Shown here: positions 2,027-26,152 of the stretch, piece after piece
How positions within the stretch are numbered: position 1 is the stretch's first letter
Layout of the letters: the number at the start of each line of letters is the position of its first letter
Source of the DNA: a virus
Length of the DNA stretch: 28,617 bases
Direction: 5' to 3' (one strand)
IMG/VR virus record: IMGVR_UViG_3300009151_007184
Span: 1-28,617 of that record
Notes under the pieces: generated by a model
Database searches by the model: none
What the model was told of the DNA's origin: nothing
What the model saw: the letters and a program-made list of their open reading frames with translations, nothing else
Translations under genes and position numbers: made by a program

Positions 2027-2098
2027 TTACTTATTCATTACGTACATTGTAACTTCAAAACCAAAGCGCATTTCTGTAGCTGCTGGTGTTGTCCACAT
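2027..2098 (-). CDS. pqqA: PqqA, ribosomal precursor peptide of pyrroloquinoline quinone
   Basis: A 23-codon gene. The peptide starts MWTTPAATEMRF and ends GFEVTMYVMNK. It has the same length and layout as the short PqqA of enteric and pseudomonad bacteria, including the invariant E-V-T-x-Y core with Glu15 and Tyr19. These are the two residues cross-linked by PqqE (with PqqD) and excised to become PQQ. PQQ is the periplasmic cofactor of methanol and glucose dehydrogenases. AAAGGAG lies about 8 bases before the ATG, a sigma70-type promoter and a leader with an inverted repeat lie upstream, and an intrinsic terminator follows. No pqqB, C, D or E gene is nearby, so the peptide would have to be matured by host enzymes. 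That it raises PQQ supply during infection of a methylotroph is inference. Confidence 0.93.
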   Translation of the reverse strand: MWTTPAATEMRFGFEVTMYVMNK

Positions 2099-2301: not shown

Positions 2302-2568
2302 TTAATCTTCTGAATCAAATATCCAGACTATGTTATCTTCGCTGACAACATAATGCGGAACATCATCTACGGTTACAGGATTGGCTTTATTCCAATCACA
2401 GAATACAACATCGTCTGGTTTAACCATGGTGACTTCGCTACCCACGGCCATGACCTGTGCTCGATCTACATTGCCATCAAAATCATTCTGTAAGATTATA
2501 CCTGATTCTGTTGTGGATTTCTTTTTAAGTCTGACTACTAGTACGTTCTTTTTTAGTGGTTTAATCAA
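2302..2568 (-). CDS. GroES-like co-chaperonin (gp31-type)
   Basis: 88 aa, a GroES-fold protein. The N-terminus (IKPLKKNVLVVRL) matches the first strand of GroES. Residues 17-30 fit the mobile loop with the IIL tripeptide at 24-26 that docks on GroEL. AQVMAVG, DDVVFCDW and the C-terminal strand VVSEDNIVWIF follow in family order. It is a little shorter than GroES (about 97 aa). T4 gp31 replaces GroES for folding the major capsid protein, and related genes occur in T4-like aquatic phages. The start is a TTG overlapping the TAA of the upstream gene; no ATG is in a suitable place. Confidence 0.85.
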   Translation of the reverse strand: MIKPLKKNVLVVRLKKKSTTESGIILQNDFDGNVDRAQVMAVGSEVTMVKPDDVVFCDWNKANPVTVDDVPHYVVSEDNIVWIFDSED

Positions 2569-3999: not shown

Positions 4000-4609
4000 C
4001 TAGATTGTTTTCAAAGTGATGTTTGCGTTCATCTAAACCCAGGGTGCCACCATTGATGACCTTGGTCATGCCAACAACGTCGTTGCTGTCGCAGTAGTTG
4101 TTTAGGTTATGAGTCTTCCAGAACCAGCAGGCACTTTCTATGGCACCAGTTAGGTTTTCGCAATAGGTAACTGCTTCGTCCAGACTCTTGCCAACGCTGG
4201 CCGCAAATTTTGTATAGTTGTCTTTGCCAGTTAACTGTATGGCACCACGACCACGGAATTTATATCCTTCGCCAGATGCTTCTGGACCATTGCCCATGCG
4301 ATCCGCATAGATTTTATTGGCAATCTTTTCTGGGTTACGGTTATAAGGGTTGGCACTTTCCAGTGTAGGAAATCGTTTAGGGAATACTTTATGAAGACCA
4401 TCGGCACTATAGTTAAGATTTTCTTTTAGCACAGTAAAGTCTGCACTCTCATGACCACACTGAGCCAGGAATCCAGCTACGCGTTCTACAGTTGTGATGT
4501 CGTATTTTGGAAATACCTGTTCAAATACAGCAAATAATTCAGCTGTATTTTTATTTTTTGGCAGACATTTTGCCAGTTTAGCTGCGTTAAAATCAAAATC
4601 AAAGGACAT
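3983..4609 (-). CDS. GH19 (chitinase class I-like) endolysin
   Basis: 208 aa, a glycoside hydrolase family 19 lysozyme. CGHESADFTVLKENLNYS carries the two likely catalytic glutamates, E54 and E63. RGRGAIQLTGKDNY and the C-terminal INGGTLGLDER are typical of phage GH19 endolysins, which cleave the glycan backbone of peptidoglycan. There is no signal peptide, so release would need a holin or another export route; no holin was recognised in this window. The RBS (AAGGAG) lies inside the end of the upstream glycosyltransferase gene, with an 11-base overlap. A second muralytic gene, the SleB-type one, lies about 4 kb downstream. Confidence 0.9.
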   Translation of the reverse strand: MSFDFDFNAAKLAKCLPKNKNTAELFAVFEQVFPKYDITTVERVAGFLAQCGHESADFTVLKENLNYSADGLHKVFPKRFPTLESANPYNRNPEKIANKIYADRMGNGPEASGEGYKFRGRGAIQLTGKDNYTKFAASVGKSLDEAVTYCENLTGAIESACWFWKTHNLNNYCDSNDVVGMTKVINGGTLGLDERKHHFENNLVVLSA

Positions 4610-5429
4610 AGCCTAACTCCTTGAGGTATAAGTTTGAATAATGGTTGATTAAATGTGGTGTAGCATTATGTCGATCCCATTGATGTATGACACTGGGGAT
4701 CTTACCATAGACACTGACACGACCATCATCTAGTATTTTAAGATCAGTTGGTGGAACCAGACACAAAGTTCCTACGCCTGTGGCATTGGGCAACTTGGTA
4801 TGAGGTAATAGATCCTTATGGAATATGTAATTGTATGGACCTTGCTCATCGGGTATTCCGCCTACTTCCATCATCTTTTTAATGTCACGTTGGTTCATGA
4901 GTGAGACTATGTATTGAATCATCATCTCTTGTGAACCTAAAGTAGTGCCTGAACATAAGATGCGATTAGCTTCTAGTTCCTTGGCAACTGCTTCGCCATA
5001 GTTGGTGGTCAGTACATATTTATTAAATCTTTCGCCCAGGTTAAAGCGAGGATCTTCTTCATTGACAAATAAATCTACCTGTCCGGGTTTGGGTTCGATT
5101 TCAGCAAAGATGTCACCCTGGAACGCAACGTCGCGTACATCCGAATGAAATACTCGATCATATTCTCCACGAGCCTCGAGCAGTATGTCCAGGTACTTAA
5201 AATAACGAGTATTATGAATAGCACTAGGAACGAAGTATCCAGCAGTATAGAATCTAACATCAACGCCACTCTCCAATAGGTAATTAAGTTTATCCTGAAC
5301 AATATCTGGTTCAACCAGCAGAATCAAATCTGCAGTCTCAGCCATGTAACGTTTCCAGCTTTCTACAAATACTGCTATGAGGTCTACCTTGTAGCCCCAG
5401 GCTGTACCAATAATTAAATTTTTAGTCAT
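4599..5429 (-). CDS. Putative glycosyltransferase with GT-A-like motif
   Basis: 276 aa. The N-terminal strand (LIIGTAWGYK) and the central RVFHSDVRDVAFQGDIF look like the nucleotide-sugar site of a GT-A fold enzyme, where D-x-R-D takes the place of DxD. A later RILCSGTTLGSQEMMIQYI segment fits an acceptor-side helix. Donor and acceptor are not predictable. It overlaps the next gene upstream by 8 bases and belongs to sugar cluster A, downstream of GDP-mannose dehydratase and a C-methyltransferase. A role in adding a deoxysugar to a cell-surface glycan, virion protein or DNA is inference. Confidence 0.65.
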   Translation of the reverse strand: MTKNLIIGTAWGYKVDLIAVFVESWKRYMAETADLILLVEPDIVQDKLNYLLESGVDVRFYTAGYFVPSAIHNTRYFKYLDILLEARGEYDRVFHSDVRDVAFQGDIFAEIEPKPGQVDLFVNEEDPRFNLGERFNKYVLTTNYGEAVAKELEANRILCSGTTLGSQEMMIQYIVSLMNQRDIKKMMEVGGIPDEQGPYNYIFHKDLLPHTKLPNATGVGTLCLVPPTDLKILDDGRVSVYGKIPSVIHQWDRHNATPHLINHYSNLYLKELGYVL

Positions 5430-6198
5430 ATACTACTACTCCTGTGTGTGCAATGGTTCCCATGAGATGTGTATGTTCAAGTTCAACTGGGTTGGTCTCT
5501 GAGAAATGTTTAAATAAAAGATGCTCAATGTCTATGTAATGTTTGGTGGTGATCTCCATGCAATCATCAATCATGCTATCAAATCTTTCAGTTACATCGT
5601 CTATCTGGTCTGGTGTAAAACTCCAGAGTCGGCTAGCATAACCATGACCTGTGCCAACGTTCTTTTGGGCATCTGGCATCCAGCTGACATCACGCTGACG
5701 GAATACATATTTACCAGCAACTGCATCGGTTTCATAGACTTCGGTTTCAAATAATGGACTTAGCTGATAGCGACCAGATATTTTAAAGATGCGATCTGTG
5801 TCACGCACAGGCTGCATGGTGTCATTATTTTTAATGGCATCTAATACTGCTCTCATCAGTGTAAGCTCTGCTACACTTTTTGTCAATCCCGTTGTGCCGC
5901 CCATTTCGGTTTTAACTGGTATGTTGTTGAAGAATTCCTTATGCAGGTGCGCAATCTGATCATTTTCCTGCAGGTTCATGTTGACCTGACAGCGAGCCTT
6001 GAGTTGACTCCAACGCAGATTTAATTCTCCCTCAGTATCCTGTATGGCTCGACCACCATCTACCAGTACCAGTATGGCATCTGGATATATGGCCTGTATG
6101 CTGTTGATAGTTTCATGAGTCTGCAGTATGCGAAGTTCTGGCGAATATACACCGACATTGGTGTTGATGGCACTGGTTATGATGAATGTAGGTTTCAT
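5422..6198 (-). CDS. Conserved phage protein of sugar cluster A, possible glycosyltransferase
   Basis: 258 aa. The N-terminus (FIITSAINTNVGVYSPELR) resembles proteins I remember from T4-like cyanophage sugar regions. IYPDAILVLVDGG resembles the second strand of a GT-A fold, and IFKISGRYQLSPLF with YVFRQRDVSWMP are the most distinctive motifs. There is no signal peptide or membrane segment. ATGA overlaps on the upstream side and an 8-base overlap on the downstream side place it in the glycosyltransferase operon. Function is inferred mainly from context. Confidence 0.55.
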   Translation of the reverse strand: MKPTFIITSAINTNVGVYSPELRILQTHETINSIQAIYPDAILVLVDGGRAIQDTEGELNLRWSQLKARCQVNMNLQENDQIAHLHKEFFNNIPVKTEMGGTTGLTKSVAELTLMRAVLDAIKNNDTMQPVRDTDRIFKISGRYQLSPLFETEVYETDAVAGKYVFRQRDVSWMPDAQKNVGTGHGYASRLWSFTPDQIDDVTERFDSMIDDCMEITTKHYIDIEHLLFKHFSETNPVELEHTHLMGTIAHTGVVVYD

Positions 6199-7094
6199 AT
6201 TAGTAATTCCGTTCCTCGGAAGTTTGGATAAAGTAATTGTTGTCTGATCAATTCAGTTGCTCGTACATCGTCAGTCACAGGTGTAAATAAGCAACGAGCC
6301 AGGTATCGACTACCACCACTGGGGCAATCTGTTGGCAACTTGCTGAAGTTCAGGAAGGTGCGTCTTGAATCGCCCAGGTTGGCTCGATTCTGGCAGTAGC
6401 TAAATGGCCCAGAATTTTTACCAATGATCAACTCACTCCACTGACTCAGATAACTGATCTGATTGATGTCAGATTCTAACCCAGCATTAATGTCTCGGGT
6501 ATAGTATATATTAGCCGCAGTTAGGCTGCTGGGGCTGGTGCAGACAAAGTTAATGTCTGGGAATTCTGCGGCCAGCTGACCAATGCTGTGGGTAAAATCA
6601 CTCATGCCACTCTGACCTGAGTTGGCACTGCCATTGCACACCAGTACCAGGCGCTGATCTTTATGGTCTCGCAACCAGCTATCTGCTCCGCTTACATCAA
6701 AGCAGCTGTAATCAATTTCAGGTAAATAGTAATCAGGATCTTCAGTCCAGTCCAGTTTAAAATACGCAAAGTATTCCTGCCAGATTGCATGCAGACGCTG
6801 AAAGTTAATATGCTCACCATGAGGGAATTTGGTGCCTTGCCAGCAACCTACCCAGGTGTTTATGTATACAGTTTCTTTATCAGTGCTTTCGGCAACTCGA
6901 GTCATGCGATCCATGAGAGGAATTTCATTCAGACCCAGGTGTGGTATGCCCAGGTCCCGTATGATGTCTGCATGATTGTTGTGTGCATAGCTAAATTCAA
7001 TGTCAGGCATCTGTTCCATCATGTCACGAACATAGCCCTTGCCTACAAAGCAATCGCCATTGTGGAACTGGTTAAAGAATATGATGTGTTTCAT
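6195..7094 (-). CDS. Putative GT-B (GT9/heptosyltransferase-like) glycosyltransferase
   Basis: 299 aa. FFNQFHNGDCFVGKGYVRDM at the N-terminus resembles the first loop of GT9-like enzymes (GD-xx), and the domain near the middle begins LVLVCNGSANSGQSG. Near residue 225, LIIGKNSGPFSYCQN resembles the donor-site segment where heptosyltransferases carry a D-SG-x-H motif. The sugar donor is unknown. It starts in an ATGA overlap with the C-methyltransferase and ends in another ATGA overlap, so it is firmly part of sugar cluster A. Alternative: a non-catalytic GT-B-fold protein. Confidence 0.55.
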   Translation of the reverse strand: MKHIIFFNQFHNGDCFVGKGYVRDMMEQMPDIEFSYAHNNHADIIRDLGIPHLGLNEIPLMDRMTRVAESTDKETVYINTWVGCWQGTKFPHGEHINFQRLHAIWQEYFAYFKLDWTEDPDYYLPEIDYSCFDVSGADSWLRDHKDQRLVLVCNGSANSGQSGMSDFTHSIGQLAAEFPDINFVCTSPSSLTAANIYYTRDINAGLESDINQISYLSQWSELIIGKNSGPFSYCQNRANLGDSRRTFLNFSKLPTDCPSGGSRYLARCLFTPVTDDVRATELIRQQLLYPNFRGTELLI

Positions 7095-8326
7095 ACCAGA
7101 TCAGCTTTGGTGATGATCTTGAACTCTGGACAGGGAACCACCAGGGCTCCACCATCTAGTAGAAATTGTCTTTCGCGTTCAATGAACTCATCGATAAAGT
7201 GCCAGGGCAGCACAAACAGGTAATCGGGTCGGGCTGCTCGCATTTCATCTTCGCTGATGATTGGAATTTCTGAACCTATGGTCTTTTTACCAAACTTATA
7301 GGGACTGCGTTCTGCAATGGCCACGATGTCCTTGGTGGTTAGGTTGAATAACTGTAGCAGTGTATTGCCCTTGGTTGATGCACCATAGCCATACACGGTT
7401 TTGCCAGCTTCACGAGCAGTGTTCATGAAGTCATAGACATCGGTCTTGAGTTTGTTGATGCGCATACCAAAGTTACCCCAGACATCTGAATCTGCTATGT
7501 CTGCTCGGGTTTCCATGGTCAGGATGGCATCGGTTCTGTACATGCAGACCTGACGCAACTGTTCGGTTCCAAATATCTTTGGATCACAACCCTGCTTGAC
7601 CAGATAGACTCGCATGCTGCCACCATTGACATCATTCAGATCAGCATCGATCACTGCAAATCCATGCTGCTGGAACAGGTATGCCAGACTGCCTAGACTG
7701 TAATAGTATACATGCTCATGACAGATGTTATCAAAAGCCATCTGACTTAACATCAGAGGTGTATAGCTCATTTGTAAGATTAGCACGCCATTGTCATCTA
7801 ATACAGCATGCAGATCTTCAATAAAGGGATTTGGATCGTCTAGATCATAGAACATGGCCACACAGGTAATGACCTTGGCTTTTTTATCTGTGGCTTTATC
7901 ATAGGCCGCTTTGCTAAAGTAATCCTGAATCACCGTAGCATGTTTGCTGCTTTCGGCATGAAATGTATCATCACAGGGATCTATGCCTACCTTGGTAAAT
8001 GTATCTGGAACCTGACGCAGTAATGTGCCATCATTGCAGGCTATGTCCAACCAGACATCACCAGGTTTGGTCTTGACTCGTTCAGTAACTTCGGTTACAA
8101 TTTTACCCAATTCCCGTGTCATGGTGGCATTAGTACCACTTCGATACCAATACCGACCCCACATGGCTTCGGGTGGAGCAACCTGGCCCAGTCTTACGGC
8201 TCCGATCTTTTTATCTAACCAAAGATCCAGACTGTATTTTTTACGATCCGTGCTGTGTTCGTCGGCATTTAAAAAGTCACTGACATAATGTTCGCCTAGA
8301 CTAAGTACTGGTTTTTCATTACTCAT
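7091..8326 (-). CDS. Sugar C-methyltransferase, TylCIII/NDP-hexose C-methyltransferase family
   Basis: 411 aa. The SAM-binding motif is VWLDIACNDGTLLRQ. HEHVYYYSLGSLAYLFQQHG and NGGSMRVYL are hallmarks of NDP-hexose 3-C-methyltransferases, and the C-terminal domain has the GYGASTKGNTLLQ signature. These enzymes add a methyl to C3 of 4-keto sugars, producing branched deoxysugars. The N-terminal zinc-binding cysteines usual in the family are not seen, although the following YWYRSGTNATM segment is kept. The ATG at 8326 has GGAG 7 bases upstream, so the longer reading frame start is rejected. With the GMD gene 0.4 kb upstream it suggests a 3-C-methyl-6-deoxyhexose (the virenose pathway is an analogy, not proof). 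Confidence 0.82.
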   Translation of the reverse strand: MSNEKPVLSLGEHYVSDFLNADEHSTDRKKYSLDLWLDKKIGAVRLGQVAPPEAMWGRYWYRSGTNATMTRELGKIVTEVTERVKTKPGDVWLDIACNDGTLLRQVPDTFTKVGIDPCDDTFHAESSKHATVIQDYFSKAAYDKATDKKAKVITCVAMFYDLDDPNPFIEDLHAVLDDNGVLILQMSYTPLMLSQMAFDNICHEHVYYYSLGSLAYLFQQHGFAVIDADLNDVNGGSMRVYLVKQGCDPKIFGTEQLRQVCMYRTDAILTMETRADIADSDVWGNFGMRINKLKTDVYDFMNTAREAGKTVYGYGASTKGNTLLQLFNLTTKDIVAIAERSPYKFGKKTIGSEIPIISEDEMRAARPDYLFVLPWHFIDEFIERERQFLLDGGALVVPCPEFKIITKADLV

Positions 8327-8705
8327 TGTTGTCTCCATATAATTTTTCTTCGATGATTTCACTGCCAAATTGTTCATTGATCTGTTTTTTAATCTCAGCT
8401 CGCTTATCGTTTGTCAGGGGTATATTCAAAGCTGCAGTATAGTATAAATCGCCACGGTCATCTTGTTTGATGCAGTTGCGAATGATGTCTTCTAGTTCCC
8501 AGATCTTTTCATTTACTTCCTTCAATTCTATATGAAAGTTATCCAGGTGTCGATCCTGAAGCGGAAAATAAATTAAACTTAGTTCCTCATACTCTACTCG
8601 GATATTATGACGCTTTTCGGTATCTTTGACTCGCTCCATTTTTATTTCTAAAATGGTAATCTTGTCTATGAGCTCTCCTAGGCTTATGGGCGCTAGTATT
8701 TTCAT
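8319..8705 (-). CDS. DUF6165-like protein of glycan clusters
   Basis: 128 aa, starting [25 protein letters not shown], typical of a small family that I recall as DUF6165 and that sits in LPS and glycan gene clusters. It is highly charged, and most of it is predicted helical and coiled-coil-like. No catalytic motif is visible. It starts in an ATGA overlap with gmd and overlaps the methyltransferase start by 8 bases. Function is unknown; an accessory or regulatory role in sugar metabolism is suggested only by neighbours. Confidence 0.7.
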
Positions 8706-9739
8706 GCGGTGTCCTTTTCAAATTGAGCTAATTTTAAATCTGATTTAACCATGTCTTTGACCAGACTCAGGAAGCTGATTTCTGGATGCCAGTTTAGTTT
8801 GGTCCTGGCTTTGCTACAATCACCTAATAATAATTCAACCTCGGCTGGGCGATAAAAATCTGAACTAATGGCTACTAAAAGCTGACCTGTTGCTTTATCA
8901 TGACCCCGTTCATCTATGCCAGTTCCGGTCCAGACTATGTCAAAGCCCAACTCAGCCGCAGCCAATTCACAAAAGGTACGAACTGTCTGAGTCTGTTCGG
9001 TACTGATGACAAAGTCTTCGGGTTCATCCAACTGCATCATGGCATGCATGGCTCGAACATAATCCTGAGCATGCCCCCAGTCTCGTTTAGCATCTATGTT
9101 GCCCAGCACAACTGGTGACTTGGTGCTGCCAACTGCCAGACGAGCTAGCTGACGGGTAATTTTTCGGGTAACAAAGTTTTCACCTCGGCGTGGACTTTCG
9201 TGATTGAACAGGATACCTGAACAGGCAAAGATGCCATAGCTTTCACGATAGTTGGTGGTGATCCAGTGCGCAAATAACTTGCTGCAACCATAGGGACTGC
9301 GAGGATAGAATGGAGTATTTTCGGTCTGTGGAGTTTCTCGTACCTTGCCAAACAGCTCTGAAGTGCTGGCCTGGTAATAGCGAATCTTTTTAGTTAATCC
9401 GAGGCTTCGAATAGTATCAAGTATACGTAGAGCGCCGAGAGCATCAACATCAGCAGTGTACTCGGGTAATTCAAAACTAACAGCAACATGAGACTGGGCA
9501 GCAAGATTGTAGATTTCGTCTGGCTGTACTTGATTAATGATATTACGAATATTAGTTGAATCAGTAAGATCTGCATAGTGTAGGTGGACATAGCTTTCGA
9601 TATTTTTTAGGTTAGGGTGACTTATATAGGATGAATTTCTGCGGATCAGACCGTGAACTTCATAATTTAATGTAAGTAAGTATTCGGCGAGATAGCTGCC
9701 ATCCTGACCGCTAATGCCTGTTATAAGGGCTTTCTTCAT
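8702..9739 (-). CDS. gmd: GDP-mannose 4,6-dehydratase
   Basis: 345 aa, full length. It converts GDP-D-mannose to GDP-4-keto-6-deoxy-D-mannose in the cytoplasm. [15 protein letters not shown] is the NADP-binding motif, [13 protein letters not shown] follows, the catalytic ASTSELFG has T126 and E128, and the Y150-xxx-K154 pair lies in [28 protein letters not shown] and [10 protein letters not shown] complete the family signature. The ATG has AAAGG upstream and the gene heads sugar cluster A. A weak promoter may lie at 9770-9798. The GDP-fucose or perosamine partner enzymes are not next to it; instead a C-methyltransferase follows. Confidence 0.95.
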
Positions 9740-20109: not shown

Positions 20110-20335
20110 GTGTTTCCTTATGATTGCAACTATGGCAATCTGGGTTAGTTGATGGATCATTTACAGCCAGCCATCGGGGCGGTGAATCCGGACAACTGGC
20201 TCCGGACAATAGGGTCTTGGCTGGCATGAAACAGCCGCATAATTTACAGACCTTGAGTAGATTTCTAAAATGTTCACAGCCTTTGCAAATAGCCAATCTG
20301 GCTTCGGCCACGGTCAGCGTGGTCTCGCCAGGCAT
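20099..20335 (-). CDS. Cysteine-rich zinc-binding protein, 78 aa
   Basis: It contains AICKGCEHF, then KVCKLCGCFMPAKTLLSGASCP and a C-terminal CHSC. The CKxCGCxMxxKTxL pattern is typical of a small phage and bacterial family with several zinc knuckles. The start at 20335 overlaps the upstream TGA as TGATG; two further upstream codons (ATG GTG) are possible. It follows the RmlB-type gene directly. Function is unknown. Confidence 0.7.
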   Translation of the reverse strand: MPGETTLTVAEARLAICKGCEHFRNLLKVCKLCGCFMPAKTLLSGASCPDSPPRWLAVNDPSTNPDCHSCNHKETHGT

Positions 20336-21339
20336 CACCATATCCAGTTATCTCGATGCCATTTAACTATGCCGGCAATTTCAGCGTCAAGTTTACGCTG
20401 AGCCATCCAGCCCAGCTTTTTAAGCTTGGTGCCATTGATACTGTATCGCAAATCAGCACCGGGTCGTTCATAATTGGTATTTATGTAATCAGCTACATTG
20501 GCATCTGCACCGTAAAACTCTCGAACCACGGCTTCAACTACTTCCAGGTTAGATGTTTCATGGTTACCAGGTATGTTGTAGATTTCGTTGACGGTTCCAC
20601 TGTTGATGATGTGTATGACAGCATCTGCAGTATCCTCTGCATGTAACCAGGTACGACGCGGCGTTCCACCCAGATGCAAGGGAATCTTGCGGCCTAACTG
20701 CAGGAACTTGACTGCCTTGGGTATGAGTTTTTCTACATACTGGCCAGCACCATAGTTATTGGTTGGGCGAACTATGACATAGGGAACATCATGAGTACGA
20801 GCCCAGGCCAGGATCAGCTGATCTGCAGCTGCCTTGGTGGCTGAATATGGATTGCTGGGATGCAATAAATGATCTTCGCTAAAACTTCCGTCGATGATAT
20901 CACCATAGACTTCGTCAGTACTAAAATGCAGAAATATGGGCATGCCATAGCGACCCTTGCTGGTAATAAGCTTGAGTAAATGATGTACGCCATTGATGTT
21001 GGATTTTAGGAATACATCTGAACCATCTATGCTGTTGTCTACATGAGTTTCAGCTGCACAGTTGATAACATAATCACAATCCACCAGACGTTCAATTTCA
21101 TTGATGTCTATGGGCTGCAGATCAAATTCAACCTTGTTGTCATAGGAAATCATTTTTAATTCGGCTTCGCGATCTGGATTGGCAGCATAGGTTATTTTGT
21201 CTATGCCTATGACGTGCCAGCCTGCTTCCATGCATTTTTTAGCAACATAGAATCCTATGAATCCCAGACAGCCTGTTACATAGACAATTTTTTTATTAGT
21301 TGATGGTTGTTTGTTTTCTGCTAGAAATCCCATGCTCAT
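20335..21339 (-). CDS. RmlB-type NDP-glucose 4,6-dehydratase
   Basis: 334 aa. VYVTGCLGFIG is the NAD-binding motif, GIDKITYAANPD mirrors the RmlB loop, and AAETHVDNSI, STDEVYGD (T141, D142, E143) and Y165-xxx-K169 (NPYSATKAAADQ) form the active site; NNYGAGQYVEKLIPKA follows. The enzyme makes a NDP-4-keto-6-deoxyglucose, the entry step for dideoxysugars; similarity to RmlB points to dTDP, but CDP is not excluded. The start overlaps the SDR gene as ATGA. It is the last enzyme gene of sugar cluster B even though it should act first. Confidence 0.88.
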   Translation of the reverse strand: MSMGFLAENKQPSTNKKIVYVTGCLGFIGFYVAKKCMEAGWHVIGIDKITYAANPDREAELKMISYDNKVEFDLQPIDINEIERLVDCDYVINCAAETHVDNSIDGSDVFLKSNINGVHHLLKLITSKGRYGMPIFLHFSTDEVYGDIIDGSFSEDHLLHPSNPYSATKAAADQLILAWARTHDVPYVIVRPTNNYGAGQYVEKLIPKAVKFLQLGRKIPLHLGGTPRRTWLHAEDTADAVIHIINSGTVNEIYNIPGNHETSNLEVVEAVVREFYGADANVADYINTNYERPGADLRYSINGTKLKKLGWMAQRKLDAEIAGIVKWHRDNWIW

Positions 21340-22109
21340 AATATTCCCATTCTGTTTAAGTTAAGACCACATCCAGTATAATCTGCATCAGTCAAGGTGT
21401 TCAGTACGTTTAATTTTATATTGAATCCCTGGTCTTCTATATATGCCTGAGCAACCTGACTAATTTTCTTTTTAGTCAGGTACACCAGGTTTATGTCCTT
21501 GATCAGATTAAAATTTTCTACATAGTGTCGGACTATGCGAACAAAATCCGCTTGGCTGATGTAATCCATGTAGCGATCGTTATAAACATCAAAAGTTTCT
21601 TTGTTTTCAGCAGCTGCCTGATCAATGCGATTAAATAGACGAGTCTGAGCTATGATACCAAATAATCTGAGGTTGTACCAGTTTTGCCAGCGAAGTACAT
21701 CCCGAGCAATCAGATTCTTGCTGAGTGCATAGGGATACAGGGGCAACTGTTGTCTGAGCACATATTCGGGTCTGTCAGCACCAGTGCCCAGCTCACAACC
21801 AGATGCTATGTTGATTAGTTTACTACCATAACCATTGCAGATATTTTTAATGTTGTCCCAGATCACCAGGTTGGTATGTGTGATGCTGGGAGCCAGACTG
21901 GTTACATTGTCTGCTCCAGCGGCCGCACAGTGTATGATGACATTGAAACTTTGACCTGCAAACCAGGACTGTACTGCATTGGCATCCATGAGGTCCAGAT
22001 CAGTACGGCCCTGCAGGGCTACAACATCATGATCAGTCATCAGATGCTGGGTTAATATCTTACCTATGACGCCATTAGCGCCAGTTATTAGTATTTTCTG
22101 TCTTGCCAT
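21336..22109 (-). CDS. NAD-dependent epimerase/reductase of sugar cluster B (SDR)
   Basis: 257 aa. ILITGANGVIGKILTQHL is the Rossmann motif, IIHCAAAGADN follows strand 4, and IASGCELG with YPYALSKN gives the Ser and Y-xxx-K active site of extended SDRs. A likely role is reduction or epimerisation of the keto group of the branched sugar made upstream; the counterpart in the yersiniose pathway is the YerF reductase, an analogy only. The ATG at 22109 overlaps the beta-like TPP gene by 35 bases; an upstream TTG is possible but less likely. Confidence 0.75.
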   Translation of the reverse strand: MARQKILITGANGVIGKILTQHLMTDHDVVALQGRTDLDLMDANAVQSWFAGQSFNVIIHCAAAGADNVTSLAPSITHTNLVIWDNIKNICNGYGSKLINIASGCELGTGADRPEYVLRQQLPLYPYALSKNLIARDVLRWQNWYNLRLFGIIAQTRLFNRIDQAAAENKETFDVYNDRYMDYISQADFVRIVRHYVENFNLIKDINLVYLTKKKISQVAQAYIEDQGFNIKLNVLNTLTDADYTGCGLNLNRMGIL

Positions 22110-22635
22110 AATCTGGGAATTCAACTAGTATAGTACTACCCTTGCGTGTATATGCATACTTATAGGCATCAACGATGTCGTCTGAATGTTTTAATTCAAC
22201 AATGTTGATGTGCTGACACATGTTGGCAAAGGCTTGGGCAAAATTGCCACGATGCTGGTCCTGTGGGTCAACTGGTATTTCAGTACCCACGGCTACTCGT
22301 ATGATTACCTTGGGATCTACTTTACCTGAACTCATGCTGTGTAGTTTGTCCAGATGATTTACAATCTGATCGGCCGCACACAATAAGAAGTTCCAGCGTG
22401 GATATATGGCTATGGGTACATAACCATTCAGAGCCAGGCCTGTGCAATAACCCATCTGAAAGTTTTCTGTAATGGGAAATTCTAACTTCTGCTCGTCGGC
22501 TATGTCAATTAAACTGTTAAACATGCCTGTGCCAGCATAACGAACTGCCTGACCAACAAACAGCGTGTTGGGTTGTTGACTCAACCAGTTCATGGCCTTG
22601 ATTAATTCACGATTGTATAATTCGGTTCTGTTCAT
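22075..22635 (-). CDS. TPP-dependent enzyme, beta-like subunit (pyrimidine-binding domain only)
   Basis: 186 aa, corresponding to the first domain of transketolase/E1-beta proteins. FVGQAVRYAGTGMF and FPITENFQMGYCTGLALNGYVPI carry the catalytic Glu (E57) that activates thiamine diphosphate. The C-terminal transketolase domain of E1-beta (about 130 aa) is absent. It starts in a TAATG overlap with its alpha-like partner, and both together would rebuild one active site. In sugar clusters such pairs are thought to transfer an acetyl or similar two-carbon unit from pyruvate to a keto sugar (AviB1/AviB2-like); this is inference. Confidence 0.8.
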   Translation of the reverse strand: MNRTELYNRELIKAMNWLSQQPNTLFVGQAVRYAGTGMFNSLIDIADEQKLEFPITENFQMGYCTGLALNGYVPIAIYPRWNFLLCAADQIVNHLDKLHSMSSGKVDPKVIIRVAVGTEIPVDPQDQHRGNFAQAFANMCQHINIVELKHSDDIVDAYKYAYTRKGSTILVEFPDYGKTENTNNWR

Positions 22636-23270
22636 TAGAATTGCACCCTGACGCCCGCACCTGCGTGTGGATATTTAGTATTCTTGTATTTGTAGTAGAC
22701 CAGGTTAGGCGCCTCATAATCAAAGTCAAAACTAGGACTGGCATTGAACAGATACCAGGGTTTGCTACGACCCCAGACCAGATCAGTTGGAGTTTCTACA
22801 CTGAGTCCATTGTCTTCGATGATAAAGGTTATGGGCAATTGTTGTCCCACTGCATACTTATAGGCTTCGTGGAACGCACCGGTTTCAGCACTCATGTCAC
22901 CTAACCAGCACCAGACCCATTCGCCATTGCCTTTTAATTTATTGGCCGCAGCAATGCCCGTGGCTATGCTGGGTATGCCACCAACGATGCTGGAACAATG
23001 TATCTTATACTCAGGTAGGTTCATGACCATGCTCTTGCCAGCCAGAATCTGTTCTTTTAGATACTCAGGTGGAACACCTTTTAATAAACACTGATAATGG
23101 TTGCGCCAGGTAGCACAGACCCAATCTTTTTTAATGTCTATGCATTCAAAGATTTTGCGAATCTGTTCTTCATTGCCATCGTATAAATGTATGGGCGCTC
23201 GAATCTCAGCACGATTAAAGCATTCGGCTATGTCGGTTTCAAAGGCCTGTAATTCAGCTGCGGTCATCAT
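22635..23270 (-). CDS. TPP-dependent enzyme, alpha-like subunit (diphosphate-binding domain only)
   Basis: 211 aa, related to pyruvate dehydrogenase E1-alpha but much shorter (usual 320-380). TWRNHYQCLLKG and HCSSIVGGIPSIATGIAAA precede the TPP-binding motif GDMSAETGAFHEA ... IEDNGLSVET, with G124-D125 and N154 about 28 residues apart. The phosphorylation loops and the distal part of E1-alpha are missing. It starts in an ATGA overlap with the dehydratase and ends in TAATG with the beta-like subunit, so equal expression is likely. Confidence 0.82.
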   Translation of the reverse strand: MMTAAELQAFETDIAECFNRAEIRAPIHLYDGNEEQIRKIFECIDIKKDWVCATWRNHYQCLLKGVPPEYLKEQILAGKSMVMNLPEYKIHCSSIVGGIPSIATGIAAANKLKGNGEWVWCWLGDMSAETGAFHEAYKYAVGQQLPITFIIEDNGLSVETPTDLVWGRSKPWYLFNASPSFDFDYEAPNLVYYKYKNTKYPHAGAGVRVQF

Positions 23271-24598
23271 ACAAATAAGCTCATGAATCCATCAACCTTT
23301 TCACCTATGTAGGCAATCTGTTCTGGAGTTATCACCGGACTGGTTCCATGGAAGTAAGTGTGAGTAGTAACATGTGTGGCAACAGGAAAGTTAGTTTTAA
23401 TTTCATCCTGGTTGGCAAACAGGTTCAGATGCTGATAGGCTGGCTGCAGCATGATGTTGCCAGCAAAATATGGACGAGTCTGTATGAGATTTTCTTCCAG
23501 ATAGTCCACAATGTCAGCACGTTTGAATGGAGCATCCTTGCGTATGGTCAGAGGGAATGCAAACCAATCTGGATCGCTTTTAGCTCTGGGGCGTGGTAAA
23601 TAAAAGAACTCTTCGTACTTAGCATAGATGTCAAACAATAATTTATAATTACGACGACGCAACTGACCAATTTCTTCGAGCTTGTCAAGTTGTTTAAGAC
23701 CCATGCTGGCCTGTAATTCTATGGGTTTAAGATTGAATCCAATTTCATCATACACATACTTGTGATCGAATATCTCGCCAGGCATGCTTGGAATCCATTC
23801 ATCAAATCGTTTACCACAGGTTCCGCATTTAAGTTTGTTGGCTTCGGGTCCTACACAGTAGCAACCACGACCCCATTCACGTAAACTACGCACAATGGTC
23901 TCGGTATTTTTATCTTTGCAGGCTACAAATCCACCTTCACCCATGGTCATGTGATGAGCCGGATAAAAGCTACAACTTGACATTTCACCAAATGAACCCA
24001 GAGGTTTACCATCATAGGTACTGCCCAGTCCATCACAGCAGTCTTCTAATAACACCAGGTTGTATTTGTTGACCAGTTCCATAACCTGATCCATGTTAGG
24101 TGGATTACCCAGCACATGAGCAAAGGTAATGACCTTGATGTTGTGCTTCTGGATCAGAGCCTCGGCCAGGGTTAGGTCTAGATTAAGAGTTTCGTATTCA
24201 ATGTCTACGAATACTGGAATAAATCCCATTTGCAGGGTTGGATTGAGCGTGGTTGGAAACCCTGCAATGGGCATGAGCACCTTGGTGCCCGGGGGAAAGT
24301 TATGGCCGCGTCGGCTTTTTAGGGCTGCCATCATCAGTAGGTTGGCACTGGATCCTGAGTTGGTTAGGACTCCGTGTTCTTTGCCAAAGTGTTTGGGAAA
24401 TTTATTTTCAAAACGCAGGCAGTCTTTGCCCATGACCAACCAACCATCTAGTAAGGTGCCAGCGGCAGCAACTATTTCCTGATGATCAAAATAAGGACCT
24501 GCATAGTTTACAAAATCCTTGCCAGCGGTCCAGGTCTTGGCCGCATTCTTTTCGGTTACAAATTCTTCAATCGCGTTTAATATTTCTTGTTTATCCAT
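23267..24598 (-). CDS. RfbH/DdhC-type NDP-4-keto-6-deoxyhexose 3-dehydratase
   Basis: 443 aa, DegT/DnrJ/EryC1 fold. In SFYPAHHMTMGEGG the PLP lysine of aminotransferases is replaced by His (about residue 215), the hallmark of CDP-6-deoxy-4-hexulose-3-dehydrase (E1). A four-cysteine segment, GRGCYCVGPEANKLKCGTC (about 246-261), lies where E1 holds its [2Fe-2S] cluster. So it should remove the C3 hydroxyl to give a 3,6-dideoxy sugar, needing a partner reductase (E3), which is not seen here. It starts at the ATG 24598 with GGGG upstream. It is in the same operon as the split TPP enzyme. Confidence 0.88.
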   Translation of the reverse strand: MDKQEILNAIEEFVTEKNAAKTWTAGKDFVNYAGPYFDHQEIVAAAGTLLDGWLVMGKDCLRFENKFPKHFGKEHGVLTNSGSSANLLMMAALKSRRGHNFPPGTKVLMPIAGFPTTLNPTLQMGFIPVFVDIEYETLNLDLTLAEALIQKHNIKVITFAHVLGNPPNMDQVMELVNKYNLVLLEDCCDGLGSTYDGKPLGSFGEMSSCSFYPAHHMTMGEGGFVACKDKNTETIVRSLREWGRGCYCVGPEANKLKCGTCGKRFDEWIPSMPGEIFDHKYVYDEIGFNLKPIELQASMGLKQLDKLEEIGQLRRRNYKLLFDIYAKYEEFFYLPRPRAKSDPDWFAFPLTIRKDAPFKRADIVDYLEENLIQTRPYFAGNIMLQPAYQHLNLFANQDEIKTNFPVATHVTTHTYFHGTSPVITPEQIAYIGEKVDGFMSLFV

Positions 24599-24611
24599 AA
24601 TCAACCCCGTT

Positions 24612-25295
24612 TTAGTAAATGACTTTTTCTTTGTATTCCTTGACTAACTCCAGACGCTCATTAGGCTGAGTGCCTGGCCAATGTATGAGCCAATCACCGG
24701 TTTCCCATTGACCCCTTTGATCATGCACATCTGTTGTCTTGGTATAGTTCCAAGGTGCAACTTTATACATTTTGTATTCATAACTGTTCATGAAATGCTG
24801 TGGCATGATTTCCATGATGTCTGTATACTTATCAGCACTGTCCAGCATGTATTGCTGTTCCTTATACTGATGATGTGCATACTTGCTCATGTTGTCCATG
24901 ATGTCCTGCAACCAGGCACGAGCTTCTGGAGTGTTTTTAATTAAGATGCTATCACAGTTGATGGCAAAATTAAAATCCGAACTCATGATGATGTGTGGAG
25001 CCGCAGCATCTTGACTCTTGGCTTCGGCAACTTTATCTTCGATGCGAGTATTAAAATTGGTCACCAGACTGTCGGTTCCAGTCCACCAGATCCATTCGAT
25101 GTCGGCATAGGCTTCAAAAGTATCTAACAGGAACTGTATCTTTTCAAAGCCAGGTTCAAATCCATAAAAGTCTTCGGTCTTGGCTATGTAAGCGTAGCCA
25201 TGTTTTTCTGCATATTTGATCTTGTTGTTGTCCCAGGTTTCTGTTGCCAGTTCCTGATACTTTTCATTGTGCATGGTAGCTATAGCTATGGTCAT
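24612..25295 (-). CDS. Putative GT34-like glycosyltransferase
   Basis: 227 aa. IEWIWWTGTDSLVTNF is similar to the nucleotide-sugar site of GT34 galactosyl/xylosyltransferases (normally DxD; here TDS). DFNFAINCDSILIKNTPEARAWLQDIM and the C-terminal GDWLIHWPGTQ also fit the family. The start overlaps the upstream GT92-like gene in an ATGA. Donor unknown; placement in sugar cluster B suggests it transfers the sugar made there or a linked residue. Confidence 0.65.
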   Translation of the reverse strand: MTIAIATMHNEKYQELATETWDNNKIKYAEKHGYAYIAKTEDFYGFEPGFEKIQFLLDTFEAYADIEWIWWTGTDSLVTNFNTRIEDKVAEAKSQDAAAPHIIMSSDFNFAINCDSILIKNTPEARAWLQDIMDNMSKYAHHQYKEQQYMLDSADKYTDIMEIMPQHFMNSYEYKMYKVAPWNYTKTTDVHDQRGQWETGDWLIHWPGTQPNERLELVKEYKEKVIY

Positions 25296-26152
25296 TTTAT
25301 TTGCTCTTTCAATATGTTCATCTGATTAATAATTTTGTCGCCAAATCTGTCCCAGATACTGCTGTCAGGTATGTCATTGTAATCATATTCGTGAAACACG
25401 CTGTCAGGTATCTGAGCACCTGGAGCGTCTGGAGTTCGATCTGCGGTACTGCCACGCGCTTGCTTTTTAGTTTTAAAATATTCCCAGCTCTTGCACTGAT
25501 AATGATTGATTCTCAGGGGTGCATGAACTGGATCTGTTCCGGTATTCAGGGGATTATGTATGGCGTTACCTGTTACATCCACAGTTCCGAATTCACTCTG
25601 GAACAGATGTGGATTACTGCCACTTATCCACCCGGCTTTCCCTCGTCCCCGTACAATACTTTTGATGTGGTGGTTCGTAACCAGATTGTCAGCACCACGA
25701 TTAACGTAGCTAGCAGTAACAAGCTCTGGGTCAGCCACCAGACCACTGCTGCCAAAAGCACACCAATAAACACCCCAAGCACTGCAATGGTAATCTCTGA
25801 TAGAATTGATAACATCTCTTATACTTTCTGCCTCGGTTGGATAATAAAATTCATCCATGTCAGCAAAAATCAAATAATCCACCGTAGGTAAGACTTCAGT
25901 TAATGCATGCTGTAGCATAGGATAATGTACATTATAACCGTCTCTGTAGTGAATGTCAATAGAATATCCAGCTGCACGAAGCCGTTCATAGATGCTCTGA
26001 GTTTCATCTGTGCTCATGTGGTTGTAGATCACAAAATGATCCACACCCTGGATTAAATAATAACTAAACCATTCTAATATGTACTTGGCTTCATTGCGTT
26101 GCATGCTAGCAACAGCTATGACATCACGCCCAGACGTCGTTCCAGTTTCCAC
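25292..26152 (-). CDS. GT92-like glycosyltransferase
   Basis: 286 aa. VASMQRNEAKYILEWFSYYL, FVIYNHMSTDET, the metal motif FADMDEF and the C-terminal RINHYQCKSWEYFKTKKQARGS are the signature of GT92 (DUF23) glycosyltransferases. The gene overlaps the nrdB end by 29 bases with a GTG start, the only start before the conserved N-terminal strand; an internal ATG would cut into it. Donor and acceptor are unknown. It begins sugar cluster B right after nrdB. Confidence 0.78.
   Translation of the reverse strand: METGTTSGRDVIAVASMQRNEAKYILEWFSYYLIQGVDHFVIYNHMSTDETQSIYERLRAAGYSIDIHYRDGYNVHYPMLQHALTEVLPTVDYLIFADMDEFYYPTEAESIRDVINSIRDYHCSAWGVYWCAFGSSGLVADPELVTASYVNRGADNLVTNHHIKSIVRGRGKAGWISGSNPHLFQSEFGTVDVTGNAIHNPLNTGTDPVHAPLRINHYQCKSWEYFKTKKQARGSTADRTPDAPGAQIPDSVFHEYDYNDIPDSSIWDRFGDKIINQMNILKEQIK

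Follow-up and report, generated by a model that had tools for sequence, protein, structure and literature searches.

On the minus strand of the window, that is, the whole stretch of 28,617 bases analyzed here, positions 2027–2098 hold a pqqA gene of 23 codons and a TAA stop, whose translation, MWTTPAATEMRFGFEVTMYVMNK, is a 23-aa PQQ precursor. The sequence-only reading, which had named no strand, took this ORF for a PqqA of 23 codons with Glu15 and Tyr19, and the family searches agreed: the peptide passed the cut-offs of both the Pfam family PF08042 (40.3 bits, E = 3e-10; cut-off 21.1) and the NCBIfam equivalog TIGR02107 (38.8 bits, E = 5.6e-10; cut-off 20), E-values that make a chance ORF untenable. 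The residues that become cross-linked, Glu15 and Tyr19, are in place as the E-x-x-x-Y of an EVT-Y core. No second PqqA match was found across the record, and none of the 14 control genomes searched for the family gave any (0/14). By its translation, the two family models and its conservation, the ORF is a true PqqA. A PHROGs search with the 23-aa peptide returned no match, and an Rfam search of the window no RNA element.

The gene is framed by several signals on the same strand. An AGGAG ribosome-binding site (2106–2110), kept in relatives, stands 7 nt before the ATG, and beyond it lies the sequence TATAAAT (2131–2137), whose TATAAA core is present in most aligned relatives and missing in L325. 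This motif resembles a T4-type late promoter, and we take it to be a candidate of that kind. Farther upstream is a sigma-70-like promoter, TAGACA-18-TATAAT (2237–2266; 11/12 consensus score), which is given as a prediction because four such sites were found in the region and 2.8 were expected by chance. Downstream of the stop codon, a predicted intrinsic terminator (1988–2011) combines a 10-bp stem with a T-rich tail. When seven phage relatives were aligned, the TATAAT box, the ribosome-binding site, the ORF and the terminator all recur, the stem-loop and T run of the latter with changed bases; the first promoter hexamer is not kept. The ribosome-binding site, promoter and terminator initially read from the letters were, in short, all predicted again around pqqA.

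Directly upstream of pqqA is a GroES-like co-chaperonin gene (2302–2568, minus strand; PF00166, phrog_3188). Among groES-linked loci of the window's lineage, pqqA lies directly downstream in all eight that were testable, while the ninth is cut off; the linkage is thus consistent in relatives, and no GroEL was seen in the window. The other genes of the window, an IMG/VR virus record, include a T4-type RNase H, NrdB, an ATP DNA ligase, an endolysin and a phage exonuclease (Pfam, PHROGs), and the RNase H is closest to those of cyanomyophages and of the OM43 myophage Melnitz (~48% identity). These T4-like genes sustain the claim that the contig is from a phage, and on gene content it is a fragment of a T4-like phage. 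A sugar-nucleotide/glycan gene block, part of which was compared with Pfam, occupies 4599–9739 and 20335–26152, with epimerases, a DegT-type aminotransferase, glycosyltransferases, a methyltransferase and two short transketolase-like ORFs.

The statement that no pqqBCDE lies nearby also held: when host PqqC, PqqD and PqqE and a fragment of PqqB served as tblastn queries, the window gave no match. The same queries had no match in 174 other viral loci, so that the linkage to pqqBCDE that is usual for pqqA, without defining it, was not seen at phage pqqA in any of these 175 loci. No methanol dehydrogenase was found in the 28.6-kb fragment.

The presence of PqqA in cultured phages was evaluated by tblastn against a collection of 50,697 phage records. 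Nine Methylophilales phage records were found, and every one contains PqqA: P19250A, whose peptide is identical to that of the window, Venkman, MEP301, MEP401, MEP402 and four Melnitz strains (the taxonomy holds further Methylophilales phages, HIM624-A and MEP431–434, outside these nine). PqqA is also present in the uncultured phage ctXG6705. The cultured pairs are Venkman and Melnitz on H5P1, MEP401 on FZCC0133, and P19250A on IMCC19250. In the medium published for H5P1, PQQ is present at 1 nM (PMC9004378). Searched against the full set of phage records, the MEP301 region shares with P19250A, MEP401, MEP402 and ctXG6705 no DNA beyond the stretch that holds pqqA. The only other matches, in two records of an Acinetobacter phage (MD-2021a), were set aside, as the inspected record (CAKLQF020000010.1) contains a bacterial pqq operon; with ppk and pqqABCDE, it looks like bacterial chromosome. 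Matches in plasmids, all large Burkholderiales replicons, were likewise set aside. The MD-2021a records show that bacterial contamination does occur, but the probability that the gene of the window is a contaminant or a chance ORF is practically negligible, given the T4-like phage genes, the lack of pqqBCDE matches alongside and the E-values reported above; the isolates, cultured phages whose complete genomes carry pqqA, already refute contamination.

A gene so short had been thought easily missed in annotation, and none of the nine Methylophilales records annotates pqqA: the gene is either passed over or overlaps an ORF called on the other strand. The site has no annotated gene in P19250A, MEP301, Venkman, MEP401 and MEP402, whereas in Melnitz and ctXG6705 an opposite-strand ORF is annotated there instead. 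Two hypothetical proteins of this kind, Melnitz gp152 (L008, 2961–3056) and UOF77531.1 (L003, 2067–2195), are probably spurious calls that hide pqqA.

In IMG/VR, a scan for codons of G(F/L)EVTMY found at least 120 contigs, and all 120 sites listed read as PqqA-like ORFs. A second scan used a DNA pattern of the N-terminal half only, leaving Glu15 and Tyr19 free to vary, and 120/120 viral ORFs among the matches listed were 23 aa long with E15 and Y19. Conservation of this pair in related phages, a check proposed along with the sequence-only reading, was therefore complete among those matches. Over codons 14–23 (112 distinct sequences), dN/dS was ~0.02 with saturated synonymous sites. The combination of saturated synonymous sites and rare protein changes indicates strong purifying selection on the peptide and not on the DNA. 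The 6-kb neighborhoods of 174 viral pqqA genes fell into 29 groups, a number that short loci may inflate, and by this comparison pqqA recurs in many unrelated phages. These results bear on the idea that pqqA is a passenger or an element acting at the DNA level (a picked-up host gene, a recombination or attachment site, or an RNA function), with no role for the peptide. Such an element could well be patchy in relatives and form a small self-contained unit, and PqqA is in any case short and conserved; nevertheless, selection on the peptide, together with the recurrence in 29 neighborhood groups and the retention of the ribosome-binding site and terminator, makes this explanation highly unlikely.

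The pattern of the nine records does not extend to all relatives. Longer contigs were fetched by a terminase like that of P19250A or MEP401, and only 8 of these 25 had PqqA; of the others, some are fragments or possibly belong to phages of different hosts. In one contig of 37.5 kb, whose terminase is 97% identical, pqqA is missing from the syntenic site. The generalization that all methylophages carry pqqA was dropped on account of this count. Phage pqqA is an accessory gene, widespread but patchy, and not essential.

One phage contig of 72 kb (IMGVR_UViG_3300025120_009955) combines pqqA with a XoxF-like PQQ alcohol dehydrogenase (608 bits, PF01011), directly followed by a 946-aa molybdopterin formate-dehydrogenase-like protein. 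Its phage genes include NrdA/NrdB and tail-fiber-like genes, and GroEL/GroES, DnaK, IscU/IscA and curli-like genes were also noted by eye. The pairing of pqqA with a PQQ or methanol dehydrogenase is shared with the Lake Baikal virus VP_266.

Methanol oxidizers of the OM43 and LD28 groups are abundant in coastal seas and lakes. In a host sample selected by pattern, the peptide of the window is letter-for-letter the commonest PqqA of Methylophilaceae (61/171). It has the same 23-aa sequence and the same E15 and Y19 as the chromosomal PqqA, but differs in its setting: it lies in a phage genome, with a predicted promoter and terminator of its own, and other pqq genes were not found beside it. A search of 120 Methylophilaceae genomes found 1–12 copies of pqqA in every one, while pqqE was above the cut-off in 117 of the 120 and usually in a single copy. 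In OM43 hosts, pqqA copies also occur far from pqqE, in line with earlier reports of extra host copies, some away from pqqBCDE (PMC9851590), and of several pqqA with one pqqBCDE (PMC4109929). The most abundant OM43 transcript is xoxF (PMC5120137). From the identity of the peptide, the host counts of pqqA and pqqE, xoxF and the cultured isolates, we infer a Methylophilaceae host for the window contig; the methylotroph host first suggested for it gains from the same identity and from the fact that isolates with pqqA infect Methylophilales.

PqqA is a substrate, one peptide being used per PQQ, while the enzymes are reused. For this reason, of all the components, it would probably be exhausted first once host transcription falls during infection, and our main reading, to which we give a probability of about 0.8, is that in a T4-like lytic phage of Methylophilaceae the orphan pqqA acts as an auxiliary metabolic gene supplying the consumable part of PQQ synthesis. 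It is a host-type metabolic gene inside a real phage genome, and its function has been kept by selection. The phage would transcribe pqqA as a short unit of its own and produce the 23-aa peptide, host PqqD would bind it, host PqqE would cross-link Glu15 and Tyr19, and host PqqF/G, PqqB and PqqC would complete PQQ. When host transcription is shut down by the phage, the enzymes would stay and fresh PqqA be lost, a gap that pqqA alone could fill; the loading of XoxF methanol dehydrogenase would then go on, and with it methanol oxidation, energy and carbon flow until lysis. PqqE with PqqD is known to cross-link the Glu and Tyr of PqqA, after which later enzymes release PQQ (PMC10906245), and because its sequence is identical to host PqqA, the phage peptide would very likely be accepted. 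According to work cited in PMC6520949, M. extorquens has less PQQ when pqqA is disrupted, and work cited in PMC9851590 had cell extracts convert added PqqA to PQQ. The supply role first proposed from the sequence fits these data, since the peptide equals host PqqA and hosts have 1–12 pqqA yet usually one pqqE. Against it stand the patchy presence in relatives and a 28.6-kb fragment without methanol dehydrogenase; moreover, pre-made PQQ may last for one infection, and new synthesis then need not limit.

A genuine PqqA could also have the opposite effect, excess peptide tying up PqqD/PqqE (and SAM), lowering host PQQ and diverting resources. PqqA does bind PqqD tightly (Kd 0.39 uM; PMC10906245) and pqqA has its own predicted promoter, but the phage sequence is that of the normal substrate, identical to host PqqA, it retains the two residues that react, although a decoy could do without them, and some phages pair pqqA with methanol dehydrogenase (the 72-kb contig; PMC7678222), so that such damping appears quite unlikely. 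It is also unlikely that PQQ made from the phage peptide serves another use, such as redox protection or a different PQQ enzyme, in place of methanol oxidation: hosts may have several PQQ dehydrogenases and PQQ is redox-active, but the named carrier phages infect methylotrophs, and xoxF is the top OM43 transcript (PMC5120137). The supply reading remains the preferred one.

Phage PqqA as a kind is already known from Lake Baikal, where in 2020 VP_266 was described as a Methylophilaceae virus with PqqA and methanol dehydrogenase, and the same role was proposed (PMC7678222). The phage of the window resembles VP_266 in being T4-like, in its predicted Methylophilaceae host and in encoding PqqA, and differs in that no methanol dehydrogenase was seen in its fragment. 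The same paper states that the isolate P19250A is without PqqA and methanol dehydrogenase genes (PMC7678222); contrary to this, P19250A encodes an identical, unannotated PqqA. Viral pqqA is also listed in a 2026 reservoir study (PMC13188868), and PqqA does not come up in the main text of the papers describing Melnitz, Venkman, MEP301 and MEP401. Within the literature searched, the breadth of its occurrence and the result on selection appear to be new, as does the failure to annotate it in isolates.

Cyanophages carry psbA (D1) and similar auxiliary genes, by which the phage supplies the fastest-used part of the host energy system. By analogy, phage pqqA would supply the part of the host system consumed fastest, although PqqA is neither an enzyme nor a reaction-center subunit but a peptide substrate from which a cofactor is made. 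If OM43 and LD28 bacteria regularly receive extra PQQ precursor from their phages, methanol oxidation would be kept going during infection, in the way that cyanophages maintain photosynthesis. We lean, with less confidence than for the window itself, toward the broader view that methylotroph phages repeatedly took only the consumable precursor, in many unrelated lineages and largely invisible to gene callers, and that the gene would set both the PQQ supply and the methanol turnover of an infected cell. Auxiliary genes below 30 aa are in general easily missed in annotation. Finally, a scan of IMG/VR for GMEVTSY found eight viral contigs, five of which read as PqqA ORFs of the alphaproteobacterial type; OM43 PqqBCDE queries had no match in the available stretches around these five (L332, L333, L336, L337 and L338), and the contigs could be from phages of other methylotrophs.
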